This document shows, piece after piece, positions 16,389 to 28,789 of a stretch of DNA of 64,000 nucleotides. The stretch comes from Blautia sp. An81 (lineage in GTDB: Bacteria; Bacillota; Clostridia; Lachnospirales; Lachnospiraceae). The first letter of the stretch is position 1, and every line of letters begins with the position of its first letter. Below the pieces are notes generated by a model. The model was given only the letters and a program-made list of their open reading frames with translations, ran no database searches and was not told the origin of the DNA. Both the position numbers and the translations under genes were made by a program. The DNA lies in contig NZ_NFHH01000005.1 of the NCBI RefSeq assembly GCF_002161285.1, positions 1-64,000 of the forward strand, written 5' to 3'.

Positions 16389-18725
16389 TTATGATCTTTT
16401 TTTCTTACCTATTATAAAAGTTACTGCTGCCAGGATCAAAGCTGCCGCTGCTGTTGCTGCATATAGGATGATCGGTGCATTATCACCGGTCTTTACCACA
16501 TGGGTTACCTTGGAAGAGCTGCTCTGATTTCCGGTTTTTCTGCTCTGACTGCTGCTGGTGCTTGTCTGGCTGCCGGAATTTCCAGAAGGCTGGATCACAC
16601 TCTGTCCTGAAGAAGAACTGCCAGTCTGAGAATTTCCAGTAGAGCTTGTTCCTGCGGAAGTACCGGAAGAACTGTTATTTCCAGTATTCTGACTGGAAGA
16701 ACCGCTCTGGGGAAGCTGTGTTCCCGGACCTACCAGCTGGCTTCCGCCTACGTTAAAGGGACTGAAAGAAGCAGTTTCAAAAGTCAGATACTCAATTCCT
16801 TCTATAGTAATGATCGTCAGATTACCCGGGTACTCCTCTGTAGGAAGGGTATAATATTCATACTCACTGTTTCCCAGATAATGGGCAATGGAAAGCTGTG
16901 AAAAGCTGTCTGCATTTTCCGGAAGGGGGATCATTACTCTTACTTTGTTTCCTTCGGGAATCTTATATTCCTCATTTTCCTTTAAATCCCAGAGCTTAAT
17001 CTCGTAGGCCGAAAGAATCTGGCCAATACCTGCATCTGGAAGCTGATCCAGCTCATCATTGTAGCTGACCTGAAGGTCCACATAATATGGAAGGAAGTCT
17101 CCTTCCACCCGCACTCCGGTATTCTCATCTATAAGACTTCCCACCGGAATAGCCTGAGGAATTTCCTGGGCAACTTCTCCGGTCTTTCCTTCCTCAGCCT
17201 GGACAAAATCTTCTTCTGTTTCCTGGGTATTTTCTTCCTGGGAAGCTTCCTCATCCTTGGAAGTTTCTTTCTCCTGATCGTTGGAAGATTCCTGAGACTC
17301 CTGTTCTTCTTCCTTCTGATCATTGGAAGTTCCCTGGTCCTCTTCTGCTGTTCCAGGATCTTTCTCCTCTGTATCAGGATTTTCTGTCTGGTCTTCTATA
17401 TTATCCTGATCTGATGCATTTTCCTGGTCTGAACCCGTCTGGTCCTGTTTGCCCTGTTCCGTATCTGCATCTTCTTTTGTGTTATCGCCGCTTTCCCCGT
17501 TTTCCTTTTCATTATCTTTATCTTTATCTGTGTTATCAGCCGGGGCGTTATCTGTATTGGAATCTTCTTTTAAGGATTCTACCAATACTTTCACTGTACG
17601 GATCACCTGATTTTTCTGGGCATCCCAGCCTTCTACCTGAGAATAATCCTTTCCTTCTATATCCGAAGGAGTAAAAACGACTTTTATCTCAGTCTCATAG
17701 GCTGTAGGAACAGTCTCCTCTTCCCATGCAAAAGAACCTTCTCCTGCAAATCCGGCCTTTCCAAAATCAAAATTTTTTATATCCTCTGGTTTGGAAAGTG
17801 TTATCTCTCCAGGAACTGTTACAGAGCCTGCAGCAGGAACAGTCTCCTCCGGTTCCTGTTCCTCGGGAGTTTCAGGCGCTTCCACAGTTTCTTCCGGAGG
17901 CGTCTGTTCCTGGGTATTATTTTCCCCAGTATCCCCTTCCGAAGAGGCAGGCTCAGAAGGTTTCAAAGACTCTACAGTCACTTCTACATTTCTTATCACT
18001 GCTCCTTTTGCCGCATCCCAGCCTTCTACCTTGGAATAGTCGTAGTTTTTGGTATCTGCAGGGGTGAAGATCACCTGAACCGTAATCTGATATTCTTCAG
18101 GCGCTGTCTGAGAAGCCCAGGCAAAAGAGCCTTCTCCGGAAAAACCTGCTGCAGCAAAATCAAAGGAATTCCATGCTTCTGGCGATGCTATGGTGACCTG
18201 AGAATTCATAGTTATCTGACCGGCTTTTTTGGCTTCTGTCTTTGTTCCCTGGACAAAGGCTTCCTTTCCAAGCTCGGCACCTGAGGTATCCACATCTGAA
18301 GACTGGAGATTTCCTCCTGTCAGAGTCAGCTTTCCTTTTCCTGTGATCTTCATAATTGCTCCGGTATAACCATCGGCCCTTTTAATCTGTACTCCTTCAG
18401 GAATTGTTACAGCTTTCTCGCTGGATATAGTCACCGGACCGCATACCAGAATGGTTCCCTTGCTGCCAGCCAGCTTTAAGGCCTGGTCAATGGAAGACAC
18501 TGCTTTTTCCTTCGTAGTTCCGTCTCCCTGATTATCTCCTGACAAAGTCCCGTTCAGGTAAACAGAAACACCTGTTCCGGAGTTTTCCGTCTGAGAGCTT
18601 TCTGCGGCATAGACAGGCACAGCTGAAACCGCCTCGCCTACAGTGCCGGCTGCCATAACAGAGGCAAGCGTAAGACTTAAAACATTGGCGGTCACTTTAT
18701 GTAAACCTTTTTTATTTCTATTCAT
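16389..18725 (-). CDS. large wall-anchored surface protein with repeats
   Basis: A 778-residue exported protein. It has a Sec signal peptide (MNRNKKGLHK, hydrophobic core, cleavage after PVYA). A short region resembling the start of a right-handed beta-helix follows (YLNGTLSGDNQGDGTTKEKA). Two ~85-residue repeats come next, each with F[DF].AGF.GEGSFAW, VIFTP or VVFTP, and KVEGWDA or QVEGWDA. Then there is a ~150-residue acidic low-complexity Glu/Asp/Gln/Asn/Thr segment, a globular domain (about 545-680), a Ser/Gly/Thr/Asn/Gln stalk, and a C-terminal signal: VKTGDN, hydrophobic helix, KKKRS tail. The last part resembles the (P)KTGD-type sortase sorting signals of Firmicutes. Start at ATG 18725 is supported by AGGAAAGGG 10 nt upstream. 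Ligand unknown. Confidence 0.75.
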   Translation of the reverse strand: MNRNKKGLHKVTANVLSLTLASVMAAGTVGEAVSAVPVYAAESSQTENSGTGVSVYLNGTLSGDNQGDGTTKEKAVSSIDQALKLAGSKGTILVCGPVTISSEKAVTIPEGVQIKRADGYTGAIMKITGKGKLTLTGGNLQSSDVDTSGAELGKEAFVQGTKTEAKKAGQITMNSQVTIASPEAWNSFDFAAAGFSGEGSFAWASQTAPEEYQITVQVIFTPADTKNYDYSKVEGWDAAKGAVIRNVEVTVESLKPSEPASSEGDTGENNTQEQTPPEETVEAPETPEEQEPEETVPAAGSVTVPGEITLSKPEDIKNFDFGKAGFAGEGSFAWEEETVPTAYETEIKVVFTPSDIEGKDYSQVEGWDAQKNQVIRTVKVLVESLKEDSNTDNAPADNTDKDKDNEKENGESGDNTKEDADTEQGKQDQTGSDQENASDQDNIEDQTENPDTEEKDPGTAEEDQGTSNDQKEEEQESQESSNDQEKETSKDEEASQEENTQETEEDFVQAEEGKTGEVAQEIPQAIPVGSLIDENTGVRVEGDFLPYYVDLQVSYNDELDQLPDAGIGQILSAYEIKLWDLKENEEYKIPEGNKVRVMIPLPENADSFSQLSIAHYLGNSEYEYYTLPTEEYPGNLTIITIEGIEYLTFETASFSPFNVGGSQLVGPGTQLPQSGSSSQNTGNNSSSGTSAGTSSTGNSQTGSSSSGQSVIQPSGNSGSQTSTSSSQSRKTGNQSSSSKVTHVVKTGDNAPIILYAATAAAALILAAVTFIIGKKKRS

Positions 18726-18864
18726 GAATAACATTCCCTTTCCTATTGTTGCAAAAGCTGAATTTTTTATATTCATTATAAACCTATATTTAACTCTGCC
18801 TAAGTATATCACAGTTTTCCATTTTTCGACACCCCCTAAAAACAACTTTTTTCAACCGGTTTTG

Positions 18865-21212: not shown

Positions 21213-21241
21213 AGAAATTTTTACCAAAGGAGGCAATACAC

Positions 21242-23323
21242 ATGTATAAAGAATGGGAGTCTTTTCACAGCGGCATCTGGGAAAAGGAAATCAATGTCCG
21301 AGACTTTATCCAAAAAAACTATACCCCCTATGATGGAAAGGAAAATTTCCTTCAGGGACCTACCCAGAGGACCAAAGACCTGTGGGAACAGGTTCTGGAG
21401 CTTACAAAAGAAGAGCAGGCCAAGGGAGGTGTTCTGGATATGGATACAAAAATCATATCTACGATTACCTCCCATGGCCCTGGTTATCTGAATAAAGAAA
21501 AAGAAACCATTGTAGGCTTCCAGACAGATAAACCTTTTAAACGTTCTCTCCAGCCTTACGGGGGTATCCGTATGGCCATAAAAGCCTGTGAGGACAACGG
21601 CTACCATGTAGACCCTCAGGTAGTAGAATTCTTCACCAAGCACAGAAAAACCCACAACGACGGGGTTTTTGACGCTTATACCCCGGAAATGCGGGCCTGC
21701 CGTTCCAGCCATATTATCACCGGCCTTCCAGACGCTTACGGACGGGGCCGTATCATCGGTGACTACCGGAGAGTAGCTCTCTATGGAGTGGACCGGCTTA
21801 TTGAAGACAAGCAGCATCAGAAGGATACCACCAGAACTATTATGTACTCTGACGTTACCAGAGAAAGAGAAGAGCTTTCCGAGCAGATCAAGGCATTAAA
21901 AGAGCTGAAAGAGCTTGGAAATATCTATGGTTTCGATATCTCCAGACCGGCTGCCAATGTTCAGGAGGCCATTCAGTGGCTGTATTTCGGCTATCTGGCC
22001 GCAATCAAGGAGCAGAACGGCGCTGCCATGTCTCTTGGAAGAACCTCCACTTTCCTGGATATCTACGCCCAGCGGGATCTCCAGAATGGCACCTTTACAG
22101 AAGAAGAAATCCAGGAGTTTGTGGACCATTTCATTATGAAGCTGCGCCTTGTAAAATTTGCCAGAACTCCGGAATACAACGCTCTGTTCTCCGGAGACCC
22201 TACCTGGGTCACAGAATCTATCGGGGGCATGGGTATAGATGGCCGTCACATGGTAACAAAAATGTCCTACCGCTATCTTCACACCCTGGAAAACCTGGGA
22301 ACAGCTCCGGAACCAAACCTTACCGTACTTTGGTCCACAAAGCTTCCCATGAACTTTAAACGTTTTTGTGCCAAGACCTCAATTATGTCCTCTTCAATCC
22401 AGTATGAGAATGATGACCTTATGCGGGTAACCCATGGAGATGACTACGCCATTGCCTGCTGCGTGTCTTCGATGCGTGTAGGAAAAGAAATGCAGTTCTT
22501 CGGAGCCAGAGCCAATCTGGCTAAGTGCCTACTCTATGCTATTAATGGAGGAGTGGATGAAATTTCCAAGAAACAGGTAGGTCCTAAGTACCGTCCTATT
22601 ACTTCTGAATATCTGGATTATGAAGAGGTTATAGAACGTTTCCGGGATATGATGAAGTGGCTGGCCCAGGTCTATGTAAACACCTTGAACATCATCCACT
22701 ATATGCACGACAAATATTCCTATGAGAGGCTGCAGATGGCCCTTCATGACAAGAAAGTGACACGCTGGTTTGCCACTGGGATCGCAGGACTTTCTGTAGT
22801 GGCCGATTCCCTCTCCGCCATTAAATATGCCAAAGTAAAAGCCATCAGAGATGAAGACGGAATCGCTGTAGATTATGAGATTCAGGGAGACTTTCCTAAA
22901 TACGGAAATGATGATGACCGGGCAGACAGTATTGCCTATGATATTGTTCACGAATTTATGTCCTATATAAAAGGAAATCACACTTACCGGGGCGGCATCC
23001 CCACAACATCTATCCTTACCATTACCTCAAATGTGGTATATGGCAAGGCTACTGGCTCCACCCCTGACGGCAGAAAGGCCGGAGAAGCCTTTGCACCGGG
23101 AGCAAATCCTATGCATCACAGAGACAGCCACGGTGCCGTTGCTTCTTTAAGCTCTGTATCCAAGCTGCCCTTTATGGACGCCCAGGATGGTATTTCCAAT
23201 ACTTTCTCCATTATTCCCGGCGCTTTGGGCAAAGATGACGCCATTTTCTTCGACGATATTACTTTTGAACTGGGAAAAGACTGCGCCTGCTGCGAACCTG
23301 GCTCAGAATTAGAAATCGAATAA
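21242..23323 (+). CDS. pflB: pyruvate formate-lyase, catalytic part lacking the glycyl-radical domain
   Basis: Formate C-acetyltransferase body of 693 residues, which would convert pyruvate and CoA to acetyl-CoA and formate. The catalytic cysteine pair is present ([15 protein letters not shown] near residue 400), as are [35 protein letters not shown] (in pieces) and the [20 protein letters not shown] segment near 600. It stops where normal PFL (about 750 residues) would continue into the glycyl-radical loop; instead it ends in an unusual Cys-rich tail, [15 protein letters not shown]. The missing domain is encoded by the next gene, 33 nt downstream, with its own AAGGAGG. AAAGGAGG precedes this ATG. 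I read this as a true two-gene PFL rather than sequencing error. Confidence 0.9.
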
Positions 23324-23356
23324 TCAAAACACACAAATTCAAGGAGGAATCTTTTT

Positions 23357-23599
23357 ATGAAAATAAGTGACGCACAGATCGATAACCTGGTAGGGCTGCT
23401 GGACGGCTATGCAGAAAAAGGAGGACACCACTTAAACGTAAATGTCTTCACAAAAGAAACCCTTCTGGATGCCCAGAAGCATCCGGAAAAATATCCTCAG
23501 CTTACGGTACGCGTATCCGGATATGCGGTAAATTTCCATAAGCTGACAAAAGAACAGCAGGACGAAGTAATCTCCCGTACCTTCCATGAAGGAATGTAA
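23357..23599 (+). CDS. grcA: separate glycyl-radical domain of pyruvate formate-lyase (GrcA-like)
   Basis: An 80-residue protein equal to the C-terminal domain of PFL. The radical site lies in [10 protein letters not shown] near residue 52-61 (the Gly is the radical carrier), preceded by [10 protein letters not shown] and HPEKYPQLT and followed by the usual [13 protein letters not shown] ending. In E. coli, YfiD/GrcA is a spare domain that rescues oxygen-cleaved PFL; here the main enzyme has no such domain of its own, so this protein must be an essential subunit if the enzyme works. It has its own start (ATG 23357) and AAGGAGG 9 nt upstream. It overlaps pflA by 14 nt. Confidence 0.92.
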
Positions 23600-24350
23600 A
23601 GACAGAGGATTTATCCACTCCATAGAGAGCTTCGGTACAGTTGACGGCCCTGGAATACGCCTGACGGTGTTCTTCCAGGGCTGTCCCATGCGGTGTCTGT
23701 ACTGCCACAATCCGGATACCTGGGCCCCTGGCAGGGGGACTCCTATGACAGTGGAAGAAATTCTGGAAATCTATAGAAAAAACAAAAGTTTTTATCAGAA
23801 AGGCGGCATTACCGCCACTGGAGGAGAACCTCTTATGCAGCTTTCCTTTCTCACGGAGCTGTTTGAAAAGGCCAGGGCCGAAGATATCCACACCTGCCTG
23901 GACACTTCAGGAATCCTCTTTAGACGGAGCCGCAAAGAGGAGTACCAAAGGCTTCTGAAATCTACCCGGCTGATCCTTCTGGATATCAAACATGCTTTCC
24001 CGGAGGAGCACAAAAAACTCACCGGACAGCCTCAGGCCCCGGTGCTGGATTTTCTGGATCTTACTGCAGAGGAAAAAGTACCAGTGATCATCCGCCATGT
24101 GATTGTAAAAGGGTTCACCGATTCTCCCAAAGAACTGGAGGAAGTGGGGAAGCTCCTTGCCAGGTATCCAAATATAAAGGGCCTGGAGGTCCTTCCCTAC
24201 CACAACATGGGGGAACAGAAATATGAAAGCCTGAATCTTCCTTATCCTTTAAAAGGCATGGAAAATCTTTCTCAGGATGAGGCGGCCAAAGCCAGAAAGA
24301 TCATTCTGGAGAGTTTTCAGCGGCATCGTTCTCCCTCATCTCTCTCATAA
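23586..24350 (+). CDS. pflA: pyruvate formate-lyase activating enzyme
   Basis: Radical SAM glycine-radical activase of 254 residues. The cluster motif CPMRCLYC (CxxxCxxC) is near residue 33-40, preceded by [19 protein letters not shown], which is nearly invariant in PflA; GGEPLMQ lies near 79. It would abstract the hydrogen from the glycine of the 80-residue subunit encoded just before it. The start overlaps that gene by 14 nt, so the three genes form one translational unit. Its 3' end overlaps the convergent ydcF-like gene by 50 nt. Confidence 0.95.
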
Positions 24351-27308: not shown

Positions 27309-27893
27309 TCACCCTCCCATGATCAAAGGCTGGTACTGCTTTCCTTCAAGAGCCGCCTGGGCCGCCGGAATCAGCAGTTCCGTGTGAGCGATCATGGAAT
27401 TCGGCTTTTTCTGGGGATTATCCTGACCAAAGGGGATAAAGTAGATGTGCTTCGCATTTAACAGCAGTCCGATGTTCTTCATATTCATGCCTAAGGCGTC
27501 GTTGGTGGAAATAGATAAAAGAAGTGGTTTTTCATTTCTCAGATGTGCTTTGGCAGCCATAAGAGCCGGCGTATCCGTAATGCCGTTCGCCAGTTTTGCA
27601 ATGGTATTTCCCGTACAGGGAAGAAGGATCAGCAGATCCAGAAGGCTTCCTGGGCCGATAGGCTCTGCCTCAGAAATGGTAAGCATAGGCTTTATCCCAG
27701 TAATCCGTTCTGCTTCTTTTACAAAATCTTCCGCCTTTCCAAAGCGGCTGTCAATACTCTGAGCCGCATCAGAAAAAATCGTCTGTATCTGGGCTCCTTC
27801 CTCTGCCAGTTTTTCCAGTTCCTGAAAAACTTTTTTATAGGTGCAGAATGACCCGGTAAGGGCCACTCCGATTTTCTTTCCTTTTAAATTCAT
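27309..27893 (-). CDS. dpaB: dipicolinate synthase subunit B
   Basis: A flavoprotein-fold subunit of 194 residues that, with DpaA, makes dipicolinic acid for the spore core. It opens MNLKGKKIGVALTGSFCTYK and contains ILLPCTGNTIAKLANGITD near residue 93, both typical of SpoVFB. The reading frame stays open far upstream, but ATG 27893 is the real start: it has GGAGG about 7 nt upstream and overlaps the dpaA stop as ATGA. Confidence 0.93.
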   Translation of the reverse strand: MNLKGKKIGVALTGSFCTYKKVFQELEKLAEEGAQIQTIFSDAAQSIDSRFGKAEDFVKEAERITGIKPMLTISEAEPIGPGSLLDLLILLPCTGNTIAKLANGITDTPALMAAKAHLRNEKPLLLSISTNDALGMNMKNIGLLLNAKHIYFIPFGQDNPQKKPNSMIAHTELLIPAAQAALEGKQYQPLIMGG

Positions 27894-28789
27894 AGTGCGC
27901 CCTCCTGCTGCACAGATTCTGATAACTTTCCAAGGGCAGCCAAAGCCAGAATTTTTCCTGAAGCTTTCGGAGCATACTTTCCTGGTATGCCAAGAAGATG
28001 CAAAGGAGAAAGTCCCAGCTCTTGGGCAGCCGGATAATCCAAACCTCCCGGTAAGGAGGCAATGTCTATGATACATGTATCCTTCCTTATATATTTCAGC
28101 TTTTCTTTTTCCAGGACAACACAGGGAGCAGTCTGAAAAATAAAAGCTGCCAAAGACAGGGCATGGGGAAGTTCTCCCTCTTCCAGCGCCTGAAGTCCTG
28201 CGGCTTTTGCCTGGGCAGCCTTTTCCCTGTCCTTCTCCCAGACCATTGTCCGGCAGAACATATTCTGAAGGTACCCTGCCAGTGTCCTGCCGCATCTGCC
28301 GTACCCGATCACCAGGCATAAACTGCCTCTCAGGTTTTCCGGGCTTCGGATAATTGCCTGGGCAACGGCCCCTTCTGCGGTGGCTATGGTGTTCTCCATA
28401 GCTGTAAAGGAATCCTCCAGAAAATCAAAACATCGGATTCCTCTTTCCCCTACTTTCTTATGAAAGCTCTCCGGTATGCCTCCGGCGCAGAAGAGACTGC
28501 CCTTTTTCAAATATTTTAGAAAATTTTCCTCGGTTAAATCTATATAGAAATCCTGCCCCTGTATTCTCCCTTCTTTCCGAAAAGGAACAGGAGCAATGAC
28601 CAGATCTGCATTTTCCAGTGCATCCTTCAGAGAGGACGCCTTCTTCACTTGTTCCTGCTCCGGGTCTTTTGGAAGACCGTAAACCATAACGGAAAATCCC
28701 TTCTCCCCCAGAGCTTCCGCCACATAGACCTGACGCATATCCCCGCCGGTCACTGCAGCTTTCCAGGAATGTCTGTTCAAATCTTTCAA
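27890..28789 (-). CDS. dpaA: dipicolinate synthase subunit A
   Basis: NAD(P)-dependent subunit of 299 residues of dipicolinate synthase, expressed in the mother cell during sporulation. It has the AAVTGGDMRQVYVAEAL opening and a Rossmann motif GYGRCGRTLAGYL near residue 156; the IDIASLPGGLDYPAAQELG segment near 248 matches SpoVFA. There is no ATG: TTG 28789 overlaps the stop of the upstream permease gene (TTGA), while TTG 28780 has a better distance (10 nt) from AAAGGA, so either may be used. Its presence marks the organism as a spore former. Confidence 0.92.
   Translation of the reverse strand: MKDLNRHSWKAAVTGGDMRQVYVAEALGEKGFSVMVYGLPKDPEQEQVKKASSLKDALENADLVIAPVPFRKEGRIQGQDFYIDLTEENFLKYLKKGSLFCAGGIPESFHKKVGERGIRCFDFLEDSFTAMENTIATAEGAVAQAIIRSPENLRGSLCLVIGYGRCGRTLAGYLQNMFCRTMVWEKDREKAAQAKAAGLQALEEGELPHALSLAAFIFQTAPCVVLEKEKLKYIRKDTCIIDIASLPGGLDYPAAQELGLSPLHLLGIPGKYAPKASGKILALAALGKLSESVQQEGAL

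Follow-up and report, generated by a model that had tools for sequence, protein, structure and literature searches.

Pyruvate formate-lyase (PFL) splits pyruvate into formate and acetyl-CoA, and in Escherichia coli oxygen cleaves the enzyme at its radical glycine. One of the described arrangements closest to the one reported here is that of E. coli, where a small protein with a radical loop, GrcA (YfiD), serves the PFL body (PflB): GrcA and the activating enzyme PflA rescue oxygen-damaged PflB (PMC12338860), and a table of the same article gives intermediate formate for a G734A PflB strain with GrcA and none without it. Since GrcA and PflA work on a PflB unable to hold its own radical, a separate domain can serve a PFL. 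We describe here a locus of Blautia sp. An81 (Lachnospiraceae), contained in the first 64,000 nucleotides of contig NZ_NFHH01000005.1 (the window, to which all coordinates refer), in which a small radical-loop protein would likewise serve a PFL body. However, whereas E. coli has an intact PFL for which GrcA is a spare part, the Blautia PFL lacks the radical domain and searches of the genome revealed no complete PFL; the break, moreover, precedes the entire domain instead of falling at the glycine, where oxygen cleaves the E. coli enzyme. The best explanation, to which we assign a probability of roughly 0.85, is a working two-subunit PFL with an exchangeable radical subunit, an enzyme that elsewhere has three parts, as in Ruminococcus bicirculans.

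Other known systems share single traits with this locus. The glycyl-radical cofactor Y06I of T4-type phages is a separate radical domain borne by a phage. Benzylsuccinate synthase and 4-hydroxyphenylacetate decarboxylase likewise have small cysteine-containing accessory proteins beside the glycyl-radical enzyme, their radical domain staying in the large chain. The small protein of the window is a member of the NCBIfam family NF038360 (GrcA3), a model that names the small protein only; what appears to be new is the cysteine component described below. A search of the open-access literature, covering papers under an open licence, returned nothing on a split PFL, on GrcA3 by name, or on the cysteine tail or separate cysteine protein.

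A catalytic body and a radical domain in separate genes

Three co-directional genes make up the locus (Table 1). The large protein matches the PFL model TIGR01255 with 1104.3 bits (cut-off 994.2) over profile positions 2-667 of 744, and the small protein covers positions 663-744; the radical domain within the same chain that is a hallmark of PFL is thus missing, the remainder of the profile being encoded by the next gene. The vicinal cysteine pair of PFL is present (ACCVS, residues 405-409 of the large subunit). The large gene ends with a TAA at 23321-23323, the GrcA3 gene runs from an ATG at 23357 to a stop at 23597-23599, and pflA overlaps it by 14 nucleotides. GrcA3 scores 170.7 bits against NF038360 (cut-off 158) and PflA 279.8 bits against TIGR02493 (cut-off 231.75). 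A first-pass annotation, made from the letters of the window, had described the same three genes, ending at 24350 with the end of pflA, and the open reading frames and profiles agree with it in both coordinates and description. It has to be corrected in that NCBIfam already recognises the small protein as GrcA3.

Table 1. Features of the PFL locus in the window
Feature	Position	Strand	Basis or detail
Ribosome-binding site of the large subunit gene, AAGGAGG	21227..21233	+	sequence
PFL large (catalytic) subunit without radical domain, 693 residues	21242..23323	+	open reading frame; TIGR01255; PF02901
Active-site Cys-Cys codons, C406-C407, motif ACCVS	22457..22462	+	sequence; equivalent to E. coli C418/C419
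29-residue C-terminal tail with DCACCEP	23234..23320	+	Cys codons 23282-23284, 23288-23293
33-nucleotide spacer, AAGGAGG at 23341-23347	23324..23356	+	sequence
GrcA3, separate glycyl-radical subunit, 80 residues	23357..23599	+	open reading frame; NF038360; Gly55 codon 23519-23521 (RVSGYAV)
pflA, radical S-adenosylmethionine (radical-SAM) PFL-activating enzyme	23586..24350	+	open reading frame; TIGR02493

This is the only PFL that we found in the genome. A search of its 82 contigs (completeness given as 100) with PF02901 returned one PFL-like locus, the split one, and a search with PF01228 returned the PFL locus and one other place, which is the anaerobic ribonucleotide reductase NrdD (TIGR02487, 464.5 bits; PF13597, 666.1 bits). 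The full-length PFL that the first-pass annotation had proposed to look for elsewhere in the genome was therefore not found by either search in the 82 contigs. The same split, a truncated body with a separate small match nearby, occurs in 15 of 20 genomes of the genus, each of them with a single PFL above the cut-off; two further genomes are without any PFL (completeness 76 and 93). The spacer between the two parts measures 23 to 261 nucleotides in the 15 split loci, and the small gene is out of frame with the body in seven of them and in frame in eight. Both parts are under strong purifying selection: when the window was compared with 14 relatives from the genus, the ratio of nonsynonymous to synonymous substitutions (dN/dS) of the large subunit was 0.014-0.029 in 10 comparisons (dS being saturated in the other four), and dN of the small subunit was 0.008-0.042. 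The motif ACCVS is kept in all large subunits examined (81/81) and the radical loop RV/ISGYAV in all small subunits examined (91/91), none of which contains a cysteine (0/91).

The large gene could be a PFL broken by a stop mutation or a sequencing error, with the small protein as a conventional spare part in the manner of GrcA in E. coli, or the stop codon could be read through to yield a fused PFL, with the separate small protein as a by-product. The window itself is compatible with both, as its two genes lie in one frame, separated by just one TAA, and the 33 nucleotides of the spacer contain no further stop; NCBIfam labels the small protein an autonomous cofactor, as the former would have it, and eight in-frame loci out of 15 exceed the five or so expected by chance, as the latter would. 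The genus comparison, however, decides against them. Since the break recurs in 15 of 20 genomes and is out of frame in seven of the 15 loci, it is neither chance nor a frame error, and the objection of the first-pass annotation to a sequencing error is upheld; on this comparison frame error, single mutation and read-through were all rejected. A broken gene accords poorly with purifying selection on both parts and with a genome in which no intact PFL to be rescued was found, and the small protein falls below the cut-off of the GrcA model (TIGR04365, 94.2 bits against 170). The solved GrcA structure 6owr, which we take to be E. coli YfiD, aligns to residues 20-79 of it only, and E. coli PFL to residues 7-80. 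As for read-through, two to nine stops separate the parts in the in-frame loci L012, L015 and L021, and AGGAG or GGAGG precedes the small gene in all 14 relatives and in the window. We consider a broken PFL very improbable and read-through hardly credible.

A model of the window pair was built as if the TAA were read as glutamine, from an alignment of 89 rows. Its mean predicted local distance difference test (pLDDT) is 84.3 and its predicted template modelling score (pTM) 0.87, with residues 665-705 (tail and spacer) below a pLDDT of 50. The best solved match is E. coli PFL (2pfl_A), with a template modelling (TM) score of 0.94 of the target at 2.1 A over 793 columns. As the model superposes on E. 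coli PFL, the separate radical domain would fit the usual PFL groove. The first-pass view of the two-part form as the enzyme itself is thus supported by the searches, which found no other PFL in this genome, by the single PFL above the cut-off in each split genome of the genus, by purifying selection, by the kept cysteine pair and radical loop, and by this superposition.

Spread and history of the split form

Of 397 family genomes, 129 have a GrcA3 match above the curated cut-off, at least three of these places lying in fused PFL frames. Among the GrcA3 places listed, those of genomes G270, G114 and G092 lie in PFL-length frames and are fused, as is that of G410, just below the cut-off. With the 15 genus genomes described above, these counts confirm the suspicion of the first-pass annotation that similar splits exist in relatives. 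In 291 genomes drawn from the class, GrcA3 exceeds the cut-off in 16 and reaches E<=1e-42 in 18 (five from the same family and 13 from outside it). Among the 80 loci listed, the split is found in Ruminococcus bicirculans, R. albus, R. flavefaciens, Olsenella uli, Lancefieldella rimae and Collinsella, and also in Spirochaetales and Gastranaerophilales, several of the sources being metagenome-assembled genomes whose contig assignment is taken as given. The split form is common, is not special to this locus and occurs beyond the family. Some GrcA3 genes have no PFL body in the stretch examined (L123, L151, L156, L163, L164, L168 and L173), and these are perhaps true spare parts.

For a phylogenetic analysis we collected 186 PFL bodies, 182 of which (142 split and 40 full-length) remained after removal of four duplicates (L230 and L190, split; L159 and L160, full-length). 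Loci whose retrieved stretch contains no full-length body were left out (L123, L137, L147, L151, L156, L163, L164, L168, L173, L174, L188, L199, L209, L213, L217, L228, L233, L235, L237, L238, L241, L244, L249, L261 and L262), and the short loci L175-L185 and the later loci L266-L284 are also outside the 142 split bodies. In the resulting tree (FastTree, root not inferred), every split form other than L242 and L254 belongs to one set of 154 rows (support 96), in which 14 full-length bodies are nested at three places, and five changes between full-length and split forms are counted overall. As the other full-length PFLs sit outside the split set, the history of these enzymes reads as a single ancient split followed by several fusions. 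The linker of the nested fused forms contains two or more cysteines in L065 and L161 and one in L258; none was found in the linkers of the remaining full-length forms (40 checked).

Contigs of a viral collection carry the small protein as well. A scan of them gave at least 63 loci, and in at least 14 contigs GrcA3 is nearly whole in length (L294-L307, several being almost identical to one another), seven of the 14 being over 100 kb long. Like Y06I these copies are separate radical domains, here on viral contigs; unlike it, they are of the GrcA3 type and comprise nearly the whole domain, and three of them (L295, L298 and L307) stand beside a domain-less PFL body, which in L298 and L307 is in two open frames. 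The viral bodies end in SLGKDED or SLGKEED, with no cysteine. Among the matches listed, 44 of the other 49 viral loci match from residue 21 only. Besides each other, the two split bodies outside the main set, L242 and L254, are closest to the viral form (82% and 81% to L295).

The cysteine-rich element

The cysteine-rich tail at the end of the large subunit, already pointed out in the first-pass annotation, is real, and is more important than was thought there, being conserved and alternating with a separate protein. The motif DCACCEP is present in all 14 genus relatives shown. Elsewhere the tails vary, mostly with cysteines (ECGNQACNIPN, CPDEACRIPN, CDCGPDMSCGIPN, PGCCQANLN, PDCGCC). At other loci the body stops early, and an additional open reading frame of about 55-95 residues lies nearby, usually between the body and GrcA3, with the pattern IDDIVAMLDxFM..GGGHMNV...DCAxGNxACxVPTLxEGMD; in an alignment of 26 rows, the residues G, H, N, C, C and P are invariant. 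Three of these separate cysteine proteins gave no Pfam match above the cut-off (best E 0.03) and only weak NCBIfam matches, the best each time being the first half of GrcA3 (E 3e-6 to 4e-3), and their profile has no match below E 0.3 to any solved chain, which sets them apart from the small subunits of benzylsuccinate synthase and 4-hydroxyphenylacetate decarboxylase. The same profile matches the first 35 or so residues of the window GrcA3 and of 90 out of 90 others (E 4e-9 to 3e-5) and, more weakly, a few full-length PFL ends. As the first half matches GrcA3, SGYA is absent (64/64) and a cysteine stretch stands in its place, the separate protein is a defunct copy of the radical domain's first half, its radical loop replaced by cysteines.

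The number of cysteines is two to four in every one of 70 tails and 64 separate proteins (the latter including two shortened ones, L107 and L148), and exactly two in 34 and 30 of them, respectively. C-x-x-P occurs in 62/64 separate proteins and 52/70 tails, and the spacing in the tails is CxCC in 25, CxxxxC in 13 and CC in six of the 70. Some cysteine proteins (L107, L078/L081, L148) are without the second half of the motif and end in GCTDCAK (L107 and, going by the profile, L078 and L081) or GCTTCSQ (L148). Three small proteins with HHGRCDxGSP (L292, L293 and L362), no PFL being seen near them, match the first part of the profile and are perhaps a further relative of the cysteine protein.

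To compare the two forms, a separate protein was scored as a profile match within the same retrieved stretch and a tail as two or more cysteines after ALGK. The 142 distinct split bodies comprise 71 with a tail only, 64 with a separate protein only, none with both and seven with neither; the tail of L252 (DCAC) was seen on extended DNA. Tail and separate protein changed into each other 16 times on the tree. In eight independent, well-supported pairs with a difference in the separate protein, the tail differs in the opposite sense in 7.6 on average and never in the same (sign test, median p 0.008, range 0.008-0.03), and the reverse test, starting from the tail, gave 7.7 opposite, 2.3 without difference and none the same way in 10 pairs, with the same p. 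On these sequences, tail and separate protein are mutually exclusive and replace each other repeatedly on the tree. Turning to loci outside the 142 split bodies, among the short ones L177, L178 and L181-L184 have a cysteine tail, L175, L176, L180 and L185 a separate protein and L179 neither, and all 19 later loci (L266-L284) have a separate protein and no tail cysteine.

Across the family, the separate cysteine protein occurs at 98 places in 98 of 397 genomes at E<1e-11 (counted by hand), and in 120 genomes at E<=1e-5, where most of the weaker matches listed are GrcA3 itself. At 25 of the 98 places there is no neighbouring GrcA3 among the matches listed; the DNA shows one close by in 20 of these (L266-L284 and L291), leaving five without (L285-L289). 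Solitary cysteine proteins, with no PFL gene among the open reading frames of the DNA examined, are those of L285-L290; by eye, L287 and L288 lie near proline-synthesis-like genes and L285 and L289 near a MoxR-like ATPase.

Some bodies have neither form. Two of them (L132 and L166) come from genomes with a separate cysteine protein elsewhere (L290 and L288, respectively). Two more, L242 and L254, from related species, have a thioredoxin gene (PF00085, SCANC) between pflA and the body. A phmmer search with this thioredoxin, covering the loci up to L293 and the window, gave two other hits, both weak (L256 and L168), neither at a locus with a body lacking the cysteine element.

A probable two-subunit enzyme and the possible role of its cysteines

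We infer that the two proteins are active together and that the radical subunit is exchanged. The large subunit would provide the substrate site and the Cys-Cys pair, and GrcA3 the whole glycyl-radical domain as a protein of its own. PflA would place the radical on Gly55 of free GrcA3, which would then dock in the groove that the fused domain occupies in E. coli PFL; the radical would move to the cysteine pair and pyruvate would be split to acetyl-CoA and formate. From the known chemistry of PFL, oxygen damage should be limited to the small part, so that only GrcA3 would be destroyed and could then be replaced. The cysteine element next to the break is a second, conserved component, present as a fused tail here and as a separate, degenerate domain in nearly half of the relatives examined. 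Our best guess is that it acts as a thiol-redox guard or as a place-holder of the large subunit while GrcA3 is missing or has been damaged, an explanation put first because two cysteines suffice, because their spacing varies and because one lineage devoid of the element has an adjacent thioredoxin. More tentatively, and with rather less than even confidence, we suggest that an old PFL lineage works with three components, namely a body, an exchangeable GrcA3 and a dithiol module that descends from a non-functional radical domain and guards or reduces the catalytic cysteine pair, the module having been fused and separated many times and perhaps replaced by thioredoxin in one lineage.

Two other roles of the cysteines deserve consideration. 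Instead of acting as redox thiols or place-holders, they could form a metal or iron-sulfur site, for which the small subunits of 4-hydroxyphenylacetate decarboxylase and benzylsuccinate synthase offer a parallel and with which the two to four cysteines of every tail and separate protein would agree. We regard such a site as unlikely: the spacing is not fixed, close to half of the tails and of the separate proteins have two cysteines only, and the separate protein has neither a Pfam match above the cut-off nor a solved relative. Alternatively, tail and separate protein could be decoys of the radical domain that sit in the empty groove until displaced by active GrcA3, with no redox chemistry at all. 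This would account for the homology between the start of the radical domain and the first half of the separate protein, whose end (PTLHEGMD) looks, by eye, similar to that of GrcA3 (RTFHEGM). The fused tails, however, have the cysteine stretch without the homologous first half, so that the cysteines seem to be the essential part, and a model of a body with its separate cysteine protein lends the decoy no structural support; we find it doubtful, if somewhat easier to entertain than a metal site.

Several observations weigh against a working two-subunit enzyme guarded by its cysteines. Three of the 20 genus genomes (G003, G007 and G008), which are larger, have two full-length PFLs each and no split PFL, one of the two (L005-L007) being nested within the split part of the tree. 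The read-through model tethers both parts, and its alignment holds fused PFLs, so that docking was favoured from the start. The model of a body with its separate cysteine protein (L152) is poor (pLDDT 66.7), and its best solved match, over 669 columns, takes in about the body only; the alpha-beta-gamma complex of benzylsuccinate synthase is among its solved matches. The variable spacing of the tail cysteines fits redox chemistry better than a metal site and proves neither, and the thioredoxin clue comes from one clade only. No cysteine element was found for L124, L232 and L251, the genomes of the last two giving only partial matches to the cysteine-protein profile (one of which, in the genome of L251, is a different small protein). 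The element is also missing in the L242/L254 lineage, in the three viral copies and in the shorter loci L179 and L238, and it is therefore not strictly needed.

In gut bacteria without formate dehydrogenase, including Blautia, PFL is the predicted source of formate for the Wood-Ljungdahl pathway, in the account given by PMC11338639. Here and in many relatives, the genes for this central fermentation enzyme specify two proteins, usually along with a cysteine-rich element that is fused to the large one or made as a third small protein. With a naturally separate radical subunit, the making of the radical, docking and oxygen repair could each be studied on its own, something difficult to do with fused enzymes. 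The alternating cysteine element, whose separate form has no named family above the cut-off here (Pfam, NCBIfam), suggests that glycyl-radical enzymes have a component not yet described.

Among the other genes of the window is one for a surface-like protein of 818 residues, rich in serine and glutamate (16389-18845, minus strand), with no Pfam match. Dipicolinate synthase genes lie near the PFL operon (27309-28789, minus strand), with subunit B above its cut-off and subunit A below, pointing to a spore former.

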